In this document: one piece after another, positions 55,203-64,000 of the stretch | Layout: each line of letters starts with the position of its first letter | How positions within the stretch are numbered: the stretch's first letter is position 1 | Assembly: GCA_026004195.1 (NCBI GenBank) | Contig: BPIQ01000003.1 | Coordinates: forward strand, 248,001-312,000 | From: Candidatus Binatia bacterium | Lineage (GTDB): Bacteria > Desulfobacterota > Binatia > HRBIN30 > BPIQ01 | Direction of reading: 5' to 3' | DNA length: 64,000 nucleotides | Notes under the pieces: generated by a model | What the model saw: only the letters and a program-made list of their open reading frames with translations | The model's database searches: none | What the model was told of the DNA's origin: nothing | Translations under genes and position numbers: made by a program

Positions 55203-56102
55203 TCATTCACCCACGCCGGCGCTCGGAAGGCAAGACCCGACGAGATCGGCGTAGGAGGAGAGCACCACCCCTCGGCTTTCGAGCGCCTCGCGGACCCGGG
55301 GCGAGCACAGGGCACGGAGCTCCTCCTCCCGGTCGTAGGTCGGCGTCCAACGCCGGACCCCCTCGTCGGCGTACGCCGGATGGCCGTAAAGCTCCGTCAC
55401 CCCTTCCGGGAGCCGCGTCGAGAGAAACAGCAGGTAGCGCTCGTCGACGCGCCCGCTCTGGTGCATACCGTAAACCCGGTCGGCAAAGAAAATCCCCGCA
55501 CGCCGGAGTCGCCTGCGGGCGTAGGAGCCGAGCAGCCGGAACGTCGCCCCCTCCGCGAGCTTGCGCGGGAAGTCCCGGCGGTCGAAGCGCAACGCCTCGA
55601 GAAGGGGCTCGCGAGGCACGCGAACCGCCCGGATTCCGTAGCGCGGCGCGAGATCGCAGAGAACGTCGAGGACGACGGGGTGGAGGTGGATCGTGAGGTG
55701 CCCGTCCACGTGGGAAAGAGGAAGTCCCGTGGCCGAAAACGCCTCGAGCTGCGCGCGGATTTCGCGACGGAGGACGTCGCGGAGCGAGCGGCGGAAAAAA
55801 TATCGGACTCCGGCGGCCACGGGGTTTTTCGGAAACTCCCCCGAGAAGTCCACGAGCGGCAGGGCCGCGTAGGGTGGAAGGGCGGACCGCCCCTGCACGA
55901 GAACGAGGTGAAGCCCCACGGCGAGCCCGGGCTCCCGGAGAGCCGCCGCGACGGCTTCCTCGGCCGCATCGCCGGCCACCATGAGACTCGCCTGTCGGAG
56001 GATCCCTTTGCGGTAAGCCTCCAGGATCCCCGCATTCGTACCCGGCGACATACCGAAATCGTCGCCCGATACGATCAACCGAATGCGACCGGACGCTCCC
56101 AT
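55203..56102 (-). CDS. hpnK: HpnK-like carbohydrate deacetylase (YdjC/ChbG family)
   Basis: 299 aa. SGDDFGMSPGTNAGILEAYRKGIL, ASLMVAGDAAEEAV, LGLHLVLVQG-like GLHLVLVQ, and HVDGHLTIHLHPVVLDVL are signatures of YdjC-like deacetylases. The length and motif order match the hopanoid-associated HpnK. No other hpn gene is near, so a role in another glycan is possible. Confidence 0.8.
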   Translation of the reverse strand: MGASGRIRLIVSGDDFGMSPGTNAGILEAYRKGILRQASLMVAGDAAEEAVAAALREPGLAVGLHLVLVQGRSALPPYAALPLVDFSGEFPKNPVAAGVRYFFRRSLRDVLRREIRAQLEAFSATGLPLSHVDGHLTIHLHPVVLDVLCDLAPRYGIRAVRVPREPLLEALRFDRRDFPRKLAEGATFRLLGSYARRRLRRAGIFFADRVYGMHQSGRVDERYLLFLSTRLPEGVTELYGHPAYADEGVRRWTPTYDREEELRALCSPRVREALESRGVVLSSYADLVGSCLPSAGVGE

Positions 56103-57034: not shown

Positions 57035-58588
57035 TCAGTCTTTCTCCGCACGTTCTCTCGCAGCCCCGCGCAACCCCAGCGTCCGCATCATCCGGGAGAA
57101 GTTCGAGCGCGACATGCCGAGAAGCCGTGCGGCGGCCGCCTGGTTTCCCCCGCTCGCCTCGAGCGCCTCGAGGAGGCGCCGTTTTTTCTCGTCGCGAATG
57201 GTTTCCCCGAAGCTCGTTCGCCTGTCGGGAGAAGAGACGAGTTCGGGGAGGTGCTCGGGTCCGATCGTGGGGTCGCGCGAGAGCAGGACGGCCCGCTCCA
57301 CGACGTTGCGCAGCTCGCGGACGTTCCCGGGCCAACTCCACTGCCGCAGAAGCCGGACGGCGTCGGGGCGGAAGCCCCGGACCTCGCGGCCGTGCCTCCG
57401 GGCCGCTTCGTCGAGAAAGTGGGTGGCGAGCACGAGGATGTCGTCCCCCCGCGCCCGGAGCGGCGGCACGCGAATTTCCACGGCAGCGAGCCGGTAGAAA
57501 AGGTCTTCGCGGAAACGCCCGCGCACGACTTCTTCCCGAAGTTCGCGGTTGGTGGCGGCGACGAGCCGCACGTCGACACGCCTCGGCTTGCGGGCGCCCA
57601 CGCGCTGGACTTCGCCTTCCTGCAGCACCCGCAAGAGCTTCGCCTGGATGGCCAGGGGAAGGTCTCCCACTTCGTCGAGAAAAAGCGTGCCGCCGTCGGC
57701 AAGCTCGAATTTTCCCGGCCGCGATTCGACGGCACCGGTGAAGGCTCCGCGCTCGTGGCCGAAAAGCTCGCTCTCGGCGAGCTCGCCCGGGATGGCCGGG
57801 CAGTTGACGCTCACGAGCGGCCCCGCGGCCCGCCGGCCGAGCTCGTGGATCGCGCGCGCGACGAGCTCCTTTCCCGTGCCCGTCTCGCCCGTCACGAGAA
57901 CGGAAACGTCCGTCGGGGCCACGCGCTCGACGAGGGAGAGAACCTTGGCGAGCGCGGGGCTCCTCCCTACGATCCCGACCCGCTCGACGAACGCGAACAC
58001 CTGCTCGCGCACCCCTTCCTCCCGCTCCCGCCAGCGCCTCTCCCAGTCCCGCAGGCGCTCCGACACCTGCTCTTTTTCCTCGCGGTAGCGCCGCGCCGCC
58101 CAGGCCAGCGCGAGATGTCCCGCGAGAAGCTCGACACCGCGCCTGAGCCGCTCGTCCCTCGGGCGCTCCGCGAGCACCACGCGACCGAGCTCTTCGCCCC
58201 AGACCGAAAGCGGGAGGACTTCCTTTCCCTCCCCTGCCCCCTCTCCGTCCCCGAGCTCGGCCGGGAAGCTCGCCGCGTTGCCACCGCGGAAAAAGCGGAG
58301 TCGGTAGCGGCCTTTCTCGGGCACGTAGACCGCCGCACCTCCGGTAACCCCGGCTTCTTCGAGGCCCGCGGTGAATCCCTCGGCAAGCCGGCTCCAGTCC
58401 GCTTCGGCTCCTCTCGTCACTTCGAAAAACCGCGCCAGGGCGCGCGCGAGCGGATCCGCTGCGGACGTGCGGCGCGAGACCGGCCCGGGTCGGAAGCGGA
58501 GGAAAAACGCCGCTCCAGCGAGCCAGACCTCGCCGAGTGCATCGCCGGCCCAGGAAGAAAACCATCCCCCGATCTCGACGCTCGTCAT
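57035..58588 (-). CDS. Sigma-54-dependent transcriptional activator
   Basis: 517 aa. An N-terminal hydrophobic segment (about 20-40) and a GAF-like region precede the AAA+ core: Walker A GETGTGKE, the sigma-54-contacting GAFTGA, Walker B GGTLFLDEVGDLP, and the C-terminal Fis-type HTH NQAAAARLLGMSRSNFSRMMRTLGLR. No receiver domain, so it may respond to a small ligand. It is divergent from the phosphonate-type operon with a 273-base spacer, so it may regulate it. Confidence 0.92.
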   Translation of the reverse strand: MTSVEIGGWFSSWAGDALGEVWLAGAAFFLRFRPGPVSRRTSAADPLARALARFFEVTRGAEADWSRLAEGFTAGLEEAGVTGGAAVYVPEKGRYRLRFFRGGNAASFPAELGDGEGAGEGKEVLPLSVWGEELGRVVLAERPRDERLRRGVELLAGHLALAWAARRYREEKEQVSERLRDWERRWREREEGVREQVFAFVERVGIVGRSPALAKVLSLVERVAPTDVSVLVTGETGTGKELVARAIHELGRRAAGPLVSVNCPAIPGELAESELFGHERGAFTGAVESRPGKFELADGGTLFLDEVGDLPLAIQAKLLRVLQEGEVQRVGARKPRRVDVRLVAATNRELREEVVRGRFREDLFYRLAAVEIRVPPLRARGDDILVLATHFLDEAARRHGREVRGFRPDAVRLLRQWSWPGNVRELRNVVERAVLLSRDPTIGPEHLPELVSSPDRRTSFGETIRDEKKRRLLEALEASGGNQAAAARLLGMSRSNFSRMMRTLGLRGAARERAEKD

Positions 58589-58861: not shown

Positions 58862-60535
58862 GTGTCCGAGAACCCCAGCAAAGCTCGCCTCCTGAGAGAG
58901 CGCCTTGCACGCCCGGGCCTCGTCCTTGCCGTCGGCGCTCACGACGCTCTTTCGGCGAAGCTCGTCGAGGAGGCCGGATTCGACGCCGTCTGGGCGAGCG
59001 GCTTCGGCATTTCGGCGGTGAGCGGCGTGCCGGACGCCAACATCCTGACGATGACGGAAAACCTCGACGCCGTAAAACGCATCGCCGAAGCCACGGCGCT
59101 TCCCGTCGTCGCCGACTGCGACACGGGATACGGGAACGCCATCAACGTTCTTCGCACCGTTCACGAGTACGAAAGAACGGGGGTCGCCGGCATCTGCCTC
59201 GAGGACAACGTGTTTCCCAAGCGTTGCAGTTTCTACGGCGGCGTCCGCCGCGAACTCGTACCCGTCGAAGAGCACGCGCAGAAGATCCAGGCGGCCAAAG
59301 AGCACCAGCGGGACCCCGATTTCTTCGTCGTGGCCCGCACCGAAGCGCTGATCGCGGGCTGGGGCGTGGAAGAGGCTCTGCGTCGCGCACACGCCTACGC
59401 CGACGCGGGAGCGGACGCGATCCTGGTCCACTCGAAAGCCTCGACTCTCGACGAGCTGCGGGAGTTCGCCCGCAGGTGGGGACGCGAGACGCCGCTCGTC
59501 GCCGTACCCACGACCTACCCCCACGTCCGTCCCGAGGAGCTTCTCCAAGCGGGCTTCCGCATGGCCATCTTCGCGAACCAGGCGCTGCGGGCCTCGATCC
59601 CCGCGATGCGGGAGGTGCTCCGCGCCATGCGGGAGGCCGGCTCGGCGGGTATCGTCGAGGGACGCATCGCGCCGCTCGAGGAAGTCTACCGGCTCGTGGG
59701 CGTGCCCGAGCTCGAGGAAAGCGAACGCCGCTACCTGCCGACGGCACGCCGCACGCGGGCCGTCGTGATCGCGGCGGGCTTCGACGAAAGCCTCATGCCG
59801 CTCGTGGCCGACCGGCCGAAAAGCTTGCTCGACGTCCGCGGCCGGACGATCCTCGAACGGCAGGTCCTCACCCTGCGGGCGGCCGGCGTCGACGACGTGA
59901 GCGTCGTCCGCGGCTACCGCAAGGAATCCTTCGACCTTCCGTCGGTCCGCTACTTCGACAACGATCGGTACGCCGAGACGGGCGAGGTCGCGTCGCTGTT
60001 CTCCGCGCGCGAGGTCCTCGACGACCGCTTCGTCGTCCTCTACGCGGACATCCTCTTCGACCGCTCCATCCTGGACCGGCTTCTGCGAGCCGACACGGAT
60101 TTCGCCGTGGTCGTCGACCGCTCGTGGTACGACCTCGTGCGTTCGGGCGAGCCCCTTCCCGAGCGCGCCGACCTGGTGGTGACCTCGTCGGCGCCCGTTC
60201 CCCAAAGGCGGTTCGTCCCCGAAGAAGAGGGAAGCACGCTCGTCCGCATCGGGCAGAAGATCCCCCCGGAGCAAGCGCACGCGGAGTTCGTCGGCATGGC
60301 GCTCTTCTCGCAGCGCGGCGCGCGCATCCTGGCGGAGCTCCACGACGAGTTGACGAGAACCCACCGGGGCCCCTTCCACGAGGCCCTTTCGTACGAGCGA
60401 GCGAGTCTGCCCGACCTGCTGCAGGAACTCGTCGACCGCGGCCACACGGTGCGTTGCGTCGAGATCTACAAGGGCTGGATGGAAATCTCGAGCTTCGAGG
60501 ACTACCGGCGCGCGTGGGCCGAGATCCGGGACTGA
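58862..60535 (+). CDS. PEP-mutase-like protein fused to a C-terminal nucleotidyltransferase
   Basis: 557 aa, GTG 58862 with AGAGAGGG upstream. Residues 1-290 are an isocitrate-lyase/PEP-mutase barrel: Asp58, Asp85 and Asp87 in SGVPD and ADCDTGYGN, and Glu114 in LEDNVFPKRCS. Residue numbers match mussel PEP mutase exactly. The canonical EDKxxxxxNS is here EDNVFPKRCS, so Lys116 is Asn and Asn122 is Cys, while Lys120 is kept. Residues 295-557 form a nucleotidyltransferase domain (VVIAAG...PLVADRPKSLLDVRG). A PEP mutase/cytidylyltransferase fusion is known in Fom1, but in the opposite order. First gene of an operon of six. Confidence 0.82.
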   Translation: MSENPSKARLLRERLARPGLVLAVGAHDALSAKLVEEAGFDAVWASGFGISAVSGVPDANILTMTENLDAVKRIAEATALPVVADCDTGYGNAINVLRTVHEYERTGVAGICLEDNVFPKRCSFYGGVRRELVPVEEHAQKIQAAKEHQRDPDFFVVARTEALIAGWGVEEALRRAHAYADAGADAILVHSKASTLDELREFARRWGRETPLVAVPTTYPHVRPEELLQAGFRMAIFANQALRASIPAMREVLRAMREAGSAGIVEGRIAPLEEVYRLVGVPELEESERRYLPTARRTRAVVIAAGFDESLMPLVADRPKSLLDVRGRTILERQVLTLRAAGVDDVSVVRGYRKESFDLPSVRYFDNDRYAETGEVASLFSAREVLDDRFVVLYADILFDRSILDRLLRADTDFAVVVDRSWYDLVRSGEPLPERADLVVTSSAPVPQRRFVPEEEGSTLVRIGQKIPPEQAHAEFVGMALFSQRGARILAELHDELTRTHRGPFHEALSYERASLPDLLQELVDRGHTVRCVEIYKGWMEISSFEDYRRAWAEIRD

Positions 60536-60539
60536 GGGC

Positions 60540-61022
60540 ATGGAGCCTGCGGAGTTCGTCGCCTGTCTCCGGCGACACGGGTTCGATTTTTTCGTGGGCG
60601 TGCCGTGCTCTCTCGTCCGGGGGGTGATCGCCGAGCTCGAGCGCGGGGGAGAGTACGTCGCCGACACGCGCGAAGACGCTGCCCTGGGACTCGCCGCGGG
60701 AGCCTACCTCGGGGGCCGGAAGCCCGTCGTGCTCATGCAGAACTCGGGGCTCGGCGTCTCGCTGAACGCGCTCGCCTCCTTGCACCTCCTCTACCGCATC
60801 CCCTGCCTTCTCGTCGTCACCTGGCGCGGCTACGGCGGAAAGGACGCGCCCGAGCACCTTCTCCTCGGCACCCGCTGCGACGAGCTTCTCCGGTTTCTCG
60901 GCGTCCCGTACCGGGCGCCGGAACCGGACGAGGTCGAGGAAAGCGTATCCTGGGCGTCTCGGGTCCTCGACGAAGAACGCCTTCCCGCCGCACTTCTCGT
61001 CCGCCCCGGGGTTCTCGGATGA
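60540..61022 (+). CDS. Phosphonopyruvate decarboxylase-like enzyme, N-terminal (PYR) subunit
   Basis: 160 aa. GVPCSLVRGVIAELE, TREDAALGLAAGAYLGGRKPVVLMQNSGLGVSLNALAS: the Glu in REDAA is the ThDP-activating residue and the run is diagnostic of phosphonopyruvate and sulfopyruvate decarboxylases. The ThDP-binding half is in the next frame. The two overlap by four bases (ATGA). Split alpha/beta arrangement resembles ComDE sulfopyruvate decarboxylase; the neighbours favour phosphonopyruvate. Confidence 0.83.
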   Translation: MEPAEFVACLRRHGFDFFVGVPCSLVRGVIAELERGGEYVADTREDAALGLAAGAYLGGRKPVVLMQNSGLGVSLNALASLHLLYRIPCLLVVTWRGYGGKDAPEHLLLGTRCDELLRFLGVPYRAPEPDEVEESVSWASRVLDEERLPAALLVRPGVLG

Positions 61023-61585
61023 CGCTGCGGGAAGCTCTCGAGGTCCTCGCCCCCGAGCTCGGGAACGAGCTCGTCGTCCACGCCAACGGCTTTCTCTCGC
61101 GCGAGTCTTTCGCCCTCGCCGACCGTCCCGCGAACTTCTACATGATCGGTTCCATGGGGCTCGCGTCCTCGATCGGGCTCGGGCTCGCCCTCTCCCGCCC
61201 GGACCGCCGGGTGTTCGTCTTCGACGGAGACGGAAACGTGCTCATGAACCTCGGGACGCTCGCTCTCGCGGGCGCCCTCGCGCCGAAAAACTTCTTCCAC
61301 CTCTGCTTCGACAACGGAGCCTACGCGTCCACGGGCGCGCAGCCCACGATCTCCCGCTTCGTCCGGCTCGAGGGCGTGGCACGCGCCTGCGGATACCGGC
61401 TCGCCGCGCGTGTCGACGGGCCCGCCTCCCTGCGGGACACCTTCCGTAGCTGGCGTGCGAGCGAAGGTCCCGCCTTCCTTCTCGTCCGCATCGACCTCGA
61501 CGCGGAACCGCGAAAGCTTCCCCGTGTCGAGCACGCACCGTCCTTTCTGGCCGAACGCTTTCGGAAAGAAGCGACCCGTACCTGA
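61019..61585 (+). CDS. Phosphonopyruvate decarboxylase-like enzyme, C-terminal (PP) subunit
   Basis: 188 aa. ThDP/Mg-binding motif GDGNVLMNLGTLA, preceded by YMIGSMGLASSIGLGLAL, and DNGAYASTGAQPTISRFV. This is the pyrophosphate-binding domain that complements the upstream subunit. The start overlaps the previous stop by four bases. No single-chain version is present in the window. Confidence 0.83.
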   Translation: MTLREALEVLAPELGNELVVHANGFLSRESFALADRPANFYMIGSMGLASSIGLGLALSRPDRRVFVFDGDGNVLMNLGTLALAGALAPKNFFHLCFDNGAYASTGAQPTISRFVRLEGVARACGYRLAARVDGPASLRDTFRSWRASEGPAFLLVRIDLDAEPRKLPRVEHAPSFLAERFRKEATRT

Positions 61586-61592
61586 GTGGACC

Positions 61593-62672
61593 GTGCGGCT
61601 CGTTCTCCTCAACCCCGGCCCCGTCAACGTGTCCGACCGTGTCCGGGCGGCGCTCCTCGGGCCCGACGCCTGCCACCGAGAACCGGAATTTCTCGCGCTC
61701 GTGCGCAGGGTGCGGGAGCGGCTCGCCCGCCTTTTCGGGGGCGAAGGAGAGTACGAGGCCGTGCTGCTGACGGGCTCGGGGACGCTCGCCGTCGAGGCCA
61801 TGCTTTCCTCGGGCGTGGGAAACGGCAAACTTCTCGTGGCGCACAACGGCGTCTACGGCCAGCGCCTTCTCGAGATCGCACGCACCCACGGGATCCCGAC
61901 CGCGGAAGTCGTGGGTTCCGCGACGGAGCCGCTCGAGCCGGACCGCGTGAGGAGAGCCCTCGGGGAGGAAAGGGGAATCGAAGCTCTCGCCGTCGTCCAC
62001 CACGAGACGAGCACGGGTGTGCTCAACCCGATCGCCGAGCTCGGCCGAATCGCCCGCCAGTACGGCGTCCGGTTCCTCGTGGACTCCGTGAGCGGGCTCG
62101 GCGGCGACGAGCTTTCGTGGGACGACGCGGGCCCCGACCTCTGCGCCGGCACGGCGAACAAGTGCCTGCAAGGCATCCCGGGCATTTCCTTCGTCCTCGT
62201 CCGGCGTCGGGTCTCCGACGAACTCGCCTCCTACCCGCGCCGCTCGCTTTCCCTCCATCTCCCCGCTCACCTCTCGGCCCAGCGTGCGGACTCCCTTCTC
62301 TTCACGATGGCCGTCCAGAGTCTCTACGCCTTCGACGCGGCGCTCGCCGAGCTCGAAGAAGAGACGGTCGCCGGGAGAATCGAGCGCTACCGGGAAGCCG
62401 CCGCGTTGCTCCGGCGGGGTTTCGAGGACCTGGGACTTTCCTTCCTCGTGGCCCCACCCCACCGCTCGAACTCCCTCACGGCCCTCTGGCTCCCGGCCGG
62501 GAAGACCTACGAAGAACTCCACGACCGCCTCAAAGACGAGGGGTTCGTCGTCTACGCGGGACAGGGAGACTTCGCGCGGCGGATCTTCCGGGTGGCGAAC
62601 ATGGGCGCGCTCGAGAGGCGCGACTTCGAGCGCTTTCTCGTCGCGCTCCGCAAGGTTCTCGGACGCCCATGA
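61593..62672 (+). CDS. phnW: 2-aminoethylphosphonate aminotransferase-like (PhnW-type)
   Basis: 359 aa, GTG 61593. LNPGPVNVSDRVRAALLGPDACHREPEF, LTGSGTLAVEAMLSS, VHHETSTGVLNPI and the PLP lysine in GTANKCLQGIPGISFVLV fit the class V PhnW family, which interconverts phosphonoacetaldehyde and 2-aminoethylphosphonate. Gene order supports the anabolic direction. Its end overlaps the next start by four bases (ATGA). Confidence 0.85.
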   Translation: MRLVLLNPGPVNVSDRVRAALLGPDACHREPEFLALVRRVRERLARLFGGEGEYEAVLLTGSGTLAVEAMLSSGVGNGKLLVAHNGVYGQRLLEIARTHGIPTAEVVGSATEPLEPDRVRRALGEERGIEALAVVHHETSTGVLNPIAELGRIARQYGVRFLVDSVSGLGGDELSWDDAGPDLCAGTANKCLQGIPGISFVLVRRRVSDELASYPRRSLSLHLPAHLSAQRADSLLFTMAVQSLYAFDAALAELEEETVAGRIERYREAAALLRRGFEDLGLSFLVAPPHRSNSLTALWLPAGKTYEELHDRLKDEGFVVYAGQGDFARRIFRVANMGALERRDFERFLVALRKVLGRP

Positions 62673-63415
62673 CGGCCATCGTGCTCGGAGCCGGCGTGGG
62701 ACGCCGCCTGCGGGAGCTCACGGGGGGACGCCCGAAATGTCTTCTCCGATTCGGGGGCCGTTCGCTGCTCCGCCGCCTTCTCGAGAGTCTCGGGCGAGCG
62801 GGCGTGGACCGCGCCGCCGTCGTGGTCGGCGCGGGAGCGGACGAGATCCGCGCCGAGCTCCGGGACTGGGCAGGCCCACCGCGGGTCTTTTTCGTCGAGA
62901 ACCCCGACTACGAAAGGGGTGCGATCCTTTCTCTCTGGGCGGCCCGGGAGTTCTTCGACGACGCGATCCTCGTCATGGACGCGGACGTCCTCTGCCCCGT
63001 CGCCATGGTCCGGAGACTGGTCGAGTCTCCGCGCGAGAACTGCTTTCTCCTCGACGGGCGGGTCCGGAGCACGGGCGAGGAGCAGATGCTCATGGCGTCG
63101 GGGGGGCGCGTCCTCGACATCTCGCGCCGCCCCGAGCCGGGCTACGAAACCTACGGCGAGTCCGTCGGCTTCCTCAAGCTTTCCCGCGACGCGGCCCGGA
63201 CGCTGCGTGCGGTCCTCGAAGACGAAATCGCACGAGGCCGGCTCGACATCGAACACGAAGAAGCGTACCCGCGCCTCCTCCGCGCCGTCCCGGTGGGCTA
63301 CGAGCGCGTCGACGACCTCCCGTGGACCGAGATCGACTTCCCGGAAGACGTGCGCAGGGCGCGGGAGGAGATCCTACCCCTCGTCGAAGCTCTCGACGCA
63401 CGAGAAAAGGCGTGA
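62669..63415 (+). CDS. Nucleotidyltransferase, phosphocholine/phosphonate cytidylyltransferase-like
   Basis: 248 aa. VLGAGVGRRLRELTGGRPKCLLRFGGRSLLRRLLESL is the NTP-binding start, with FFVENPDYERGAILSLWAARE and VMDADVLCP for metal and sugar/alcohol-phosphate binding. Similar to LicC-type choline-phosphate cytidylyltransferases. It overlaps phnW by four bases. Probably makes CMP-aminoethylphosphonate; the fused nucleotidyltransferase on the first gene may do the same or another activation. Confidence 0.8.
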   Translation: MTAIVLGAGVGRRLRELTGGRPKCLLRFGGRSLLRRLLESLGRAGVDRAAVVVGAGADEIRAELRDWAGPPRVFFVENPDYERGAILSLWAAREFFDDAILVMDADVLCPVAMVRRLVESPRENCFLLDGRVRSTGEEQMLMASGGRVLDISRRPEPGYETYGESVGFLKLSRDAARTLRAVLEDEIARGRLDIEHEEAYPRLLRAVPVGYERVDDLPWTEIDFPEDVRRAREEILPLVEALDAREKA

Positions 63416-63455
63416 AACACTTCCTGTCTTCTGGGAACGACCGCCGCCGGAGAGC

Positions 63456-64000
63456 ATGAAAGGACGAGATCACACCGCCGATCGCCGGGTCCGCCGGGCC
63501 GTCCTCTTCGCGGGCTCGGCACCCTCGCTTCGCGTGGGCGGACGCCCGCTGGTCGAGCGGGCGCTGATCGTTCTCTCCCGCGCCGGCGTCGAAGAGTGCT
63601 ACGTCGTCGGACAGTCTCCGCCCGAACGGCGCAAAGTGGGATACCCGCGCACCATCCGCCGCATCGTCGACCACGGCCGGCGCGCCGTGGACGAGCTTCG
63701 GGCCGAAGGCGTGAAGCCCGAAGAGCCCGTCCTGTTCCTCCACACGAGCCTCCTGACCGAAGCGCCCGCGCTGCGCTCCTTCGTCCGCGGAACTTCCTTC
63801 CGCGGTTCTCTCGCCACGGCCGAGGGCGAGCCCCTGCCTCTCCTTTGCGCCACGACCGAGAAGATCCGCGAGCTCTGGGAGCCGCTACGCCGGGGCGACG
63901 GGGCTGCGCTGGCCCGCGGAGCAAGGGAAGCAGGATTCGAAGAGCGGCCGCTCGAAGGTTTCGCCGCTGTCGTGCGCACGCGGGAAGAAGCCGAGCGGGC
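63456..64000 (+). CDS. Degenerate nucleotidyltransferase-like protein, C-terminus beyond right edge
   Basis: At least 181 residues from ATG 63456, open to the window end. RRAVLFAGSAPSLRVGGRPLVERALIVLSRAGVEECYVVG resembles the N-terminal nucleotidyltransferase-like domain of bifunctional CDP-alcohol phosphatidyltransferases, but the G-x-G-T-R-L metal/NTP motif is missing. A CDP-alcohol phosphatidyltransferase domain could therefore lie just outside the window. If so, the operon could end in a lipid-linked phosphonate. Confidence 0.6.
   Translation, partial: MKGRDHTADRRVRRAVLFAGSAPSLRVGGRPLVERALIVLSRAGVEECYVVGQSPPERRKVGYPRTIRRIVDHGRRAVDELRAEGVKPEEPVLFLHTSLLTEAPALRSFVRGTSFRGSLATAEGEPLPLLCATTEKIRELWEPLRRGDGAALARGAREAGFEERPLEGFAAVVRTREEAER

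Follow-up and report, generated by a model that had tools for sequence, protein, structure and literature searches.

The closest described systems are the PepM-PntC-AEPT clusters of the Pnt pathway (PMC6697681), in which a phosphoenolpyruvate (PEP) mutase, PepM, is fused to a PF12804 nucleotidyltransferase and stands together with a phosphonopyruvate decarboxylase (Ppd), a 2-aminoethylphosphonate (AEP) aminotransferase (AEPT) and a separate PntC-type enzyme; PntC of T. denticola makes CMP-AEP (PMC6697681). These clusters end in LicD-like phosphotransferases or glycosyltransferases. For Nostoc, a phosphonolipid cluster has been published as a prediction (PMC5987646, Fig. 7 legend), and the predicted clusters of Nostoc and Burkholderia in that paper bring together pepM, ppd, AEPT, NTPT, a CDP-alcohol phosphatidyltransferase and hpnL. 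Here we describe an operon of six co-directional genes in an uncultured Candidatus Binatia bacterium. It runs from position 58862 to past 64000, the end of the stretch of 64,000 nucleotides that was analysed (the window; GenBank assembly GCA_026004195.1, contig BPIQ01000003.1, positions 248,001 to 312,000, or G000:C3:248001-312000, G000 being the window's genome, 3.63 Mb and 98.9% complete). Judged from its genes, the operon probably makes an AEP lipid, with a rare carbon-phosphorus (C-P) bond in the head group of a membrane lipid, and it starts from a mutase that lies outside the clade of known PepM.

As in the Pnt clusters, the operon contains a mutase-nucleotidyltransferase fusion, Ppd, AEPT and a separate PntC-type enzyme. 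It differs in the mutase signature (EDNx5CS for EDKx5NS), in a Ppd split over two genes and in its final CDP-alcohol phosphotransferase. The gene content of the predicted phosphonolipid clusters is likewise present; the 2-oxoglutarate oxygenase found there is absent from the window operon, and the passages of PMC5987646 at hand contain no linkage to hpnJ or hpnK. Since both kinds of cluster have been published, the logic of the operon is not new. A sequence-only reading of the window had called the two nucleotidyltransferases unusual, which is wrong, as clusters with a fused and a separate one were already published (PMC6697681) and a second such enzyme is common in them. The layout that it described, with ATGA overlaps or gaps of at most 40 bases, was borne out: genes 1/2, 3/4 and 5/6 are separated by 4, 7 and 40 bases, and genes 2/3 and 4/5 overlap in ATGA. 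Domain matches (PEP_mutase, the N- and C-terminal halves of a thiamine pyrophosphate (TPP) enzyme, PhnW-AepZ, and NTP_transf_3 in genes 1 and 5) lie far above chance and agree with its gene assignments, the NKCLQGIPG lysine motif of the aminotransferase is present, and extension of the contig past 64000 revealed the CDP-alcohol phosphatidyltransferase that it had thought worth seeking there, with the catalytic motif intact.

In the favoured pathway, the mutase domain would convert PEP to phosphonopyruvate, PpdA/PpdB would decarboxylate this to phosphonoacetaldehyde, AEPT would aminate the aldehyde to AEP, and NT2 would join AEP with CTP to give CMP-AEP. The CDP-alcohol phosphotransferase would then transfer the AEP head group to the hydroxyl of a membrane lipid, with CMP set free. 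The lipid is then probably carried across the membrane by an HpnL-like flippase, whose gene lies a few kb beyond the operon, and homologues of HpnI, HpnJ and HpnK probably add an amino sugar or cyclitol to the lipid acceptor, which would be non-hopanoid here. The reactions, their direction, the acceptor and the product are predictions from the observed genes, motifs, gene order, fusions and phylogeny.

Surveys of 2019, 2022 and 2025 define authentic PepM by EDKx5NS (PMC6697681, PMC8931226, PMC12723261). The window mutase does not contain this signature, a point that the sequence-only reading had missed, and has EDNVFPKRCS instead; EDN-x-FPK-[RKE]-CS was present in all 33 group members on our tree. 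For the rooted tree the signature was removed from the alignment, and lyases of the EDQVWPKRCGH type served as outgroup. Canonical PepM and phosphonopyruvate hydrolase split from the EDN..CS group plus outgroup with a support of 100/99, placing the EDN..CS group outside the clade of known PepM. The best tree shows it as a basal grade; monophyly, i.e., a single clade, was not rejected (approximately unbiased test, p 0.113), and in an earlier tree, from which the lyases were absent, it had the appearance of a simple clade. A late origin of the group from within canonical PepM was not supported. The loops form a series, EDQxxPKRCGH / EDNxFPKRCS / EDKxFPKxNS, in which that of the EDN..CS group is intermediate between lyases and mutases.

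When 148 genomes of the class were surveyed with the signatures as DNA pattern, 30 contained the EDN..CS pattern, three the canonical signature and none both; many of the relatives are metagenome-assembled. Where their gene neighbourhoods were inspected, most of the EDN..CS genomes also encode other parts of the pathway. One of the three canonical genomes, G009, belongs to the taxonomic order of the window and has a PepM-nucleotidyltransferase fusion with EDKLFPKTNS in an equivalent operon with Ppd, AEPT, HpnL, NT2 and transferase. This canonical fusion stands beside the same partners, so that the EDN..CS variant holds the canonical enzyme's place in the operon, which argues that both kinds of mutase have the same function. 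The modelled mutase domain, compared without NT1, matches PepM (5unc) with a Z-score of 40.9 and a root-mean-square deviation of 1.2. The catalytic residues W44, D58, D85, D87, E114, K120, S123, R159 and H190 (numbered as Mytilus PEP mutase in the alignment, with the roles that they have in that enzyme) are invariant across 29 sequences. The pathway proposed by the sequence-only reading is supported, with the correction that by signature and curated cut-off the enzyme is not a standard PepM. In the literature searched, with subscription papers mostly outside reach, we found no description of the variant or of how large a group the standard filter passes over.

The phosphonopyruvate decarboxylase model has 360 positions, of which PpdA covers 1-154 and PpdB 174-358, so that together they make up one enzyme in two halves. 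AEPT scores 333.1 bits with TIGR03301, whose cut-off is 360.8. The best solved relative of NT2 is T. denticola PntC (6pd1; 3.9e-17 over the full length), well ahead of others. Compared with the P-loop motif GxG(T/S)Rx4-8PK, NT2 reads GVGRRLRELTGGRPK, retaining Gly, Arg13 and Lys23, but the T/S position is mostly occupied by Arg or Lys; Arg13, Pro22-Lys23, D104, D106, E197, W219, E221 and D223 are invariant in 17 aligned sequences. In NT1, GxG(T/S)R is not kept (AAGFDESLMPLVADRPK). The second Gly and the Arg are gone across all fusions, including the canonical-signature fusions L067 and L068; Pro-Lys is retained in nearly all of them, as are the acidic motifs. Since the P-loop Arg and Pro-Lys are preserved in NT2 while NT1 lacks GxG(T/S)R, we infer that NT2 performs the activation. 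NT1 is probably regulatory or structural.

The motif of gene 6, DCSDGEVARVKLEESRFGDLLDITLD, matches DxxDGxxARx8GxxxDxxxD exactly. The protein shares this motif, the fold, an N-terminal nucleotidyltransferase-like domain and the domain order with AF2299 (4o6m) and IPCT-DIPPS (4mnd). Its own N-terminal domain is degenerate, without P-loop and Pro-Lys, and is probably regulatory or structural, and its partners are phosphonate instead of inositol-phosphate genes. A model of the intact relative L062 (predicted local distance difference test score 79) was closest to AF2299 and also matched IPCT-DIPPS. Elsewhere in the window's genome (L093:7727-8962, G000:C4) lies the gene of another CDP-alcohol phosphotransferase whose N-terminal domain is degenerate, with nucleotidyltransferase genes about 5 kb off.

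A protein-based genome scan yielded 38 loci. The order PepM-NT1 / PpdA / PpdB / AEPT / NT2, often followed by the transferase, recurs across phyla, in metagenome-assembled genomes that bear the titles Planctomycetota and Deltaproteobacteria, and those titled Omnitrophota show parts of it; loci titled Nitrospirae have the PepM-NT1 fusion with no other pathway gene adjoining. Neighbouring functions are fused as AEPT-NT2 (L021, 611 aa), NT2-transferase (L011, 457 aa) and transferase-HpnL (L012, 689 aa), and this chain is the best evidence for a path from CMP-AEP through the CDP-alcohol transferase to an HpnL-like flippase. A phosphonate-decorated lipid or glycan, as the sequence-only reading had it, is supported to this extent; the conserved order and the Rosetta-stone fusions favour lipid over glycan for the predicted product. 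At or near PepM-NT1, the f8 genomes and one f9 genome encode a squalene-cyclase-repeat protein of 321-342 aa (L005:6923-7888, L055, L060, L061, L063, L075-L077), followed in several of those loci by a short protein that looks Rieske-like by eye.

HpnI, HpnK and HpnJ form bacteriohopanetetrol cyclitol ether stepwise, and for HpnL no role has been established (PMC12583986). None of this linkage was noted by the sequence-only reading. In G000, PepM has hpnK 2.8 kb upstream, and hpnJ follows about 16 kb after the operon; the HpnL-like gene, at 136.1 bits, stays under the curated HpnL cut-off of 195.65. In several relatives hpnK homologues directly adjoin phosphonate genes: hpnK comes after NT2 in f9 genomes, and in f8 genomes PpdA-PpdB-AEPT-NT2-hpnK lies next to hpnI-hpnJ, with PepM elsewhere. 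In f11 genomes hpnJ-hpnI is divergent from PepM. Among 58 relatives, 13 EDN..CS genomes have hpnJ or hpnK, and in 12 of these a phosphonate gene lies within 5 kb of one or the other. Random placement would give such linkage with a chance of ~1-2% per genome; as genomes within a family are not independent, the count to be read is four families.

This linkage, with hpnI, hpnJ, hpnK and hpnL-type genes adjoining phosphonate genes in four families, had led us to propose a phosphono-hopanoid product. Squalene-hopene cyclase is missing from the window's genome (0 matches to TIGR01507), HpnH has no match over cut-off there (best 3.6e-6), and neither was found in G032 and G045. A hopanoid acceptor is therefore unlikely in the window's genome, and we give almost no weight to a phosphonate decorating hopanoids, a product to be considered for relatives that have both genes. 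Linked hpnI/J/K/L genes in a genome that lacks hopanoid synthesis suggest that these 'hopanoid' genes act on another lipid substrate. Transferase-HpnL-HpnK-HpnJ clusters also exist in G003 and G026, which have neither the EDN..CS nor the canonical signature, which suggests that a lipid head-group module came first and that the phosphonate genes were added to it. Clusters of a pseudo-nucleotidyltransferase/CDP-alcohol transferase, HpnL, HpnK and HpnJ were seen at L084:6110-12071 and L096:4839-10430, in genomes without a PepM signature. A search for hopanoid, phosphonate and pepM together returned no paper, and hpnI/J/K linkage without hopanoids was not described in the literature within our reach, from which most subscription papers were missing.

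Several points weigh against an AEP lipid. Although TIGR02320 is its best family, the gene-1 mutase scores 295.4 bits, under the trusted cut-off of 319.55, and its residue 122 is Cys, as against Asn122 in Mytilus PEP mutase. PpdA scores slightly higher as sulfopyruvate decarboxylase alpha. Among transferases whose acceptors are known, the closest are of the inositol-phosphate and not the diacylglycerol type. Past its catalytic motif, gene 6 shifts frame near G000:C3:312452-312492 (L003:6452-6492), about 450-490 bases beyond the window edge and next to five successive G. Relatives match it first in frame 1 and further on in frame 2, with the C-terminal helices in the other frame. This change may be an assembly error or real, and the gene may be broken in this assembly. 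Finally, G000 also has genes for phosphatidylethanolamine synthesis, with phosphatidylserine decarboxylase adjoining a CDP-alcohol transferase, so that a need for the phosphonolipid is not implied. The idea that the phosphonolipid replaces phosphatidylethanolamine was rejected for this reason.

The mutase findings would suit an EDN..CS enzyme that is a C-C bond lyase or hydrolase with its catalytic cysteine kept, in an operon acting on another substrate: in the alignment Cys122 corresponds to the Cys of the lyase-type loop EDQVWPKRCGH, the score is under the cut-off and the group falls outside canonical PepM and hydrolase. We nevertheless hold this to be quite improbable, since the Ppd halves, AEPT and NT2 stand alongside in most loci with enough flank, a canonical PepM occupies the equivalent place in G009, the next residue is Ser123 and not the Gly-His of lyases, and PEP mutases are closest both by fold and by sequence. 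A sulfonate pathway, from sulfopyruvate to a taurine-like product, in which PpdA/B would be sulfopyruvate decarboxylase and the aminotransferase would make taurine, could draw on the PpdA score (TIGR03845 slightly over TIGR03297) and on the split into alpha and beta subunits, as in ComDE. It is very improbable in view of the PEP-mutase partner, PhnW-AepZ as top aminotransferase family, the PntC-like NT2 and a PpdB that is marginally better as Ppd. The inositol-phosphate type of the nearest transferase families, together with the linkage of hpnI/J/K-type genes, would also fit a phosphonate attached not straight to a simple membrane lipid but to a polar acceptor, a cyclitol or sugar that is soluble or belongs to a lipid-linked glycan, with a transferase that joins two polar alcohols as IPCT-DIPPS does and HpnI/J/K building the acceptor. 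We regard this as unlikely; a membrane transferase and an HpnL-type flippase, fused in L012, suit a lipid product, and in the operon we saw neither a LicD nor a cluster of glycosyltransferases. The features are listed in Table 1. Divergent from the operon, on the minus strand at window positions 57035-58588, lies a gene that by eye encodes a sigma-54-type AAA+ regulator and may control the operon.

Table 1 Features of the operon and linked hpn genes (window positions unless a locus or genome coordinate is given; scores in bits where two values are compared).
Feature	Position	Strand	Evidence
Gene 1, PEP-mutase-like domain (residues ~6-294) and degenerate MobA-like nucleotidyltransferase NT1 (~297-556)	58862..60535	+	PF13714 1.1e-61; PF12804 9.7e-13
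Signature EDNVFPKRCS, residues 114-123, replacing EDKx5NS	59201..59230	+	alignments and tree
Gene 2, PpdA, N-terminal half of phosphonopyruvate (or sulfopyruvate) decarboxylase-like TPP enzyme	60540..61022	+	PF02776 7.4e-9; TIGR03845 119.5, TIGR03297 110.6 bits
Gene 3, PpdB, C-terminal half, GDGN TPP motif	61019..61585	+	PF02775 1e-15; TIGR03297 171.1, TIGR03846 169.7 bits
Gene 4, AEPT, PhnW/AepZ-like AEP aminotransferase, NKCLQGIPG	61593..62672	+	TIGR03301 2.4e-99
Gene 5, NT2, PntC-like cytidylyltransferase	62669..63415	+	NTP_transf_3; 6pd1 match
Gene 6, pseudo-nucleotidyltransferase / CDP-alcohol phosphotransferase	63456..64000, on to about G000:C3:312758	+	CDP-OH_P_transf 2.8e-10
HpnK-family deacetylase	55203..56102 (G000:C3:303239-304081)	-	TIGR03473 308.6 vs 232.6
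hpnJ	G000:C3:328968-330377		715.1 vs cut-off 577.6
hpnI	G000:C1:848504-849613		408.6 vs cut-off 310
HpnL-like gene, ~2 kb beyond gene 6	L003:8666-9715	opposite to operon	TIGR00374 flippase-like domain 57.6 vs 43.2

A broader proposal can be put forward tentatively only: the EDN..CS enzymes may be stem-group PEP mutases that retain the catalytic Cys of C-C lyases of the isocitrate-lyase family, as a record of the evolution of C-P bond formation, and that feed a widespread, unsurveyed phosphonolipid on a non-hopanoid acceptor built by HpnI/J/K-type enzymes. Applied to this class as a DNA pattern, the EDKx5NS rule picks out 3 of 148 genomes, and another 30 that encode a homologous enzyme escape it. 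Should the variant prove active, phosphonate production would be underestimated in soil, groundwater and freshwater lineages, and the loop series from lyase through EDN..CS to canonical mutase would offer a direct route to testing the origin of C-P mutases from C-C lyases.

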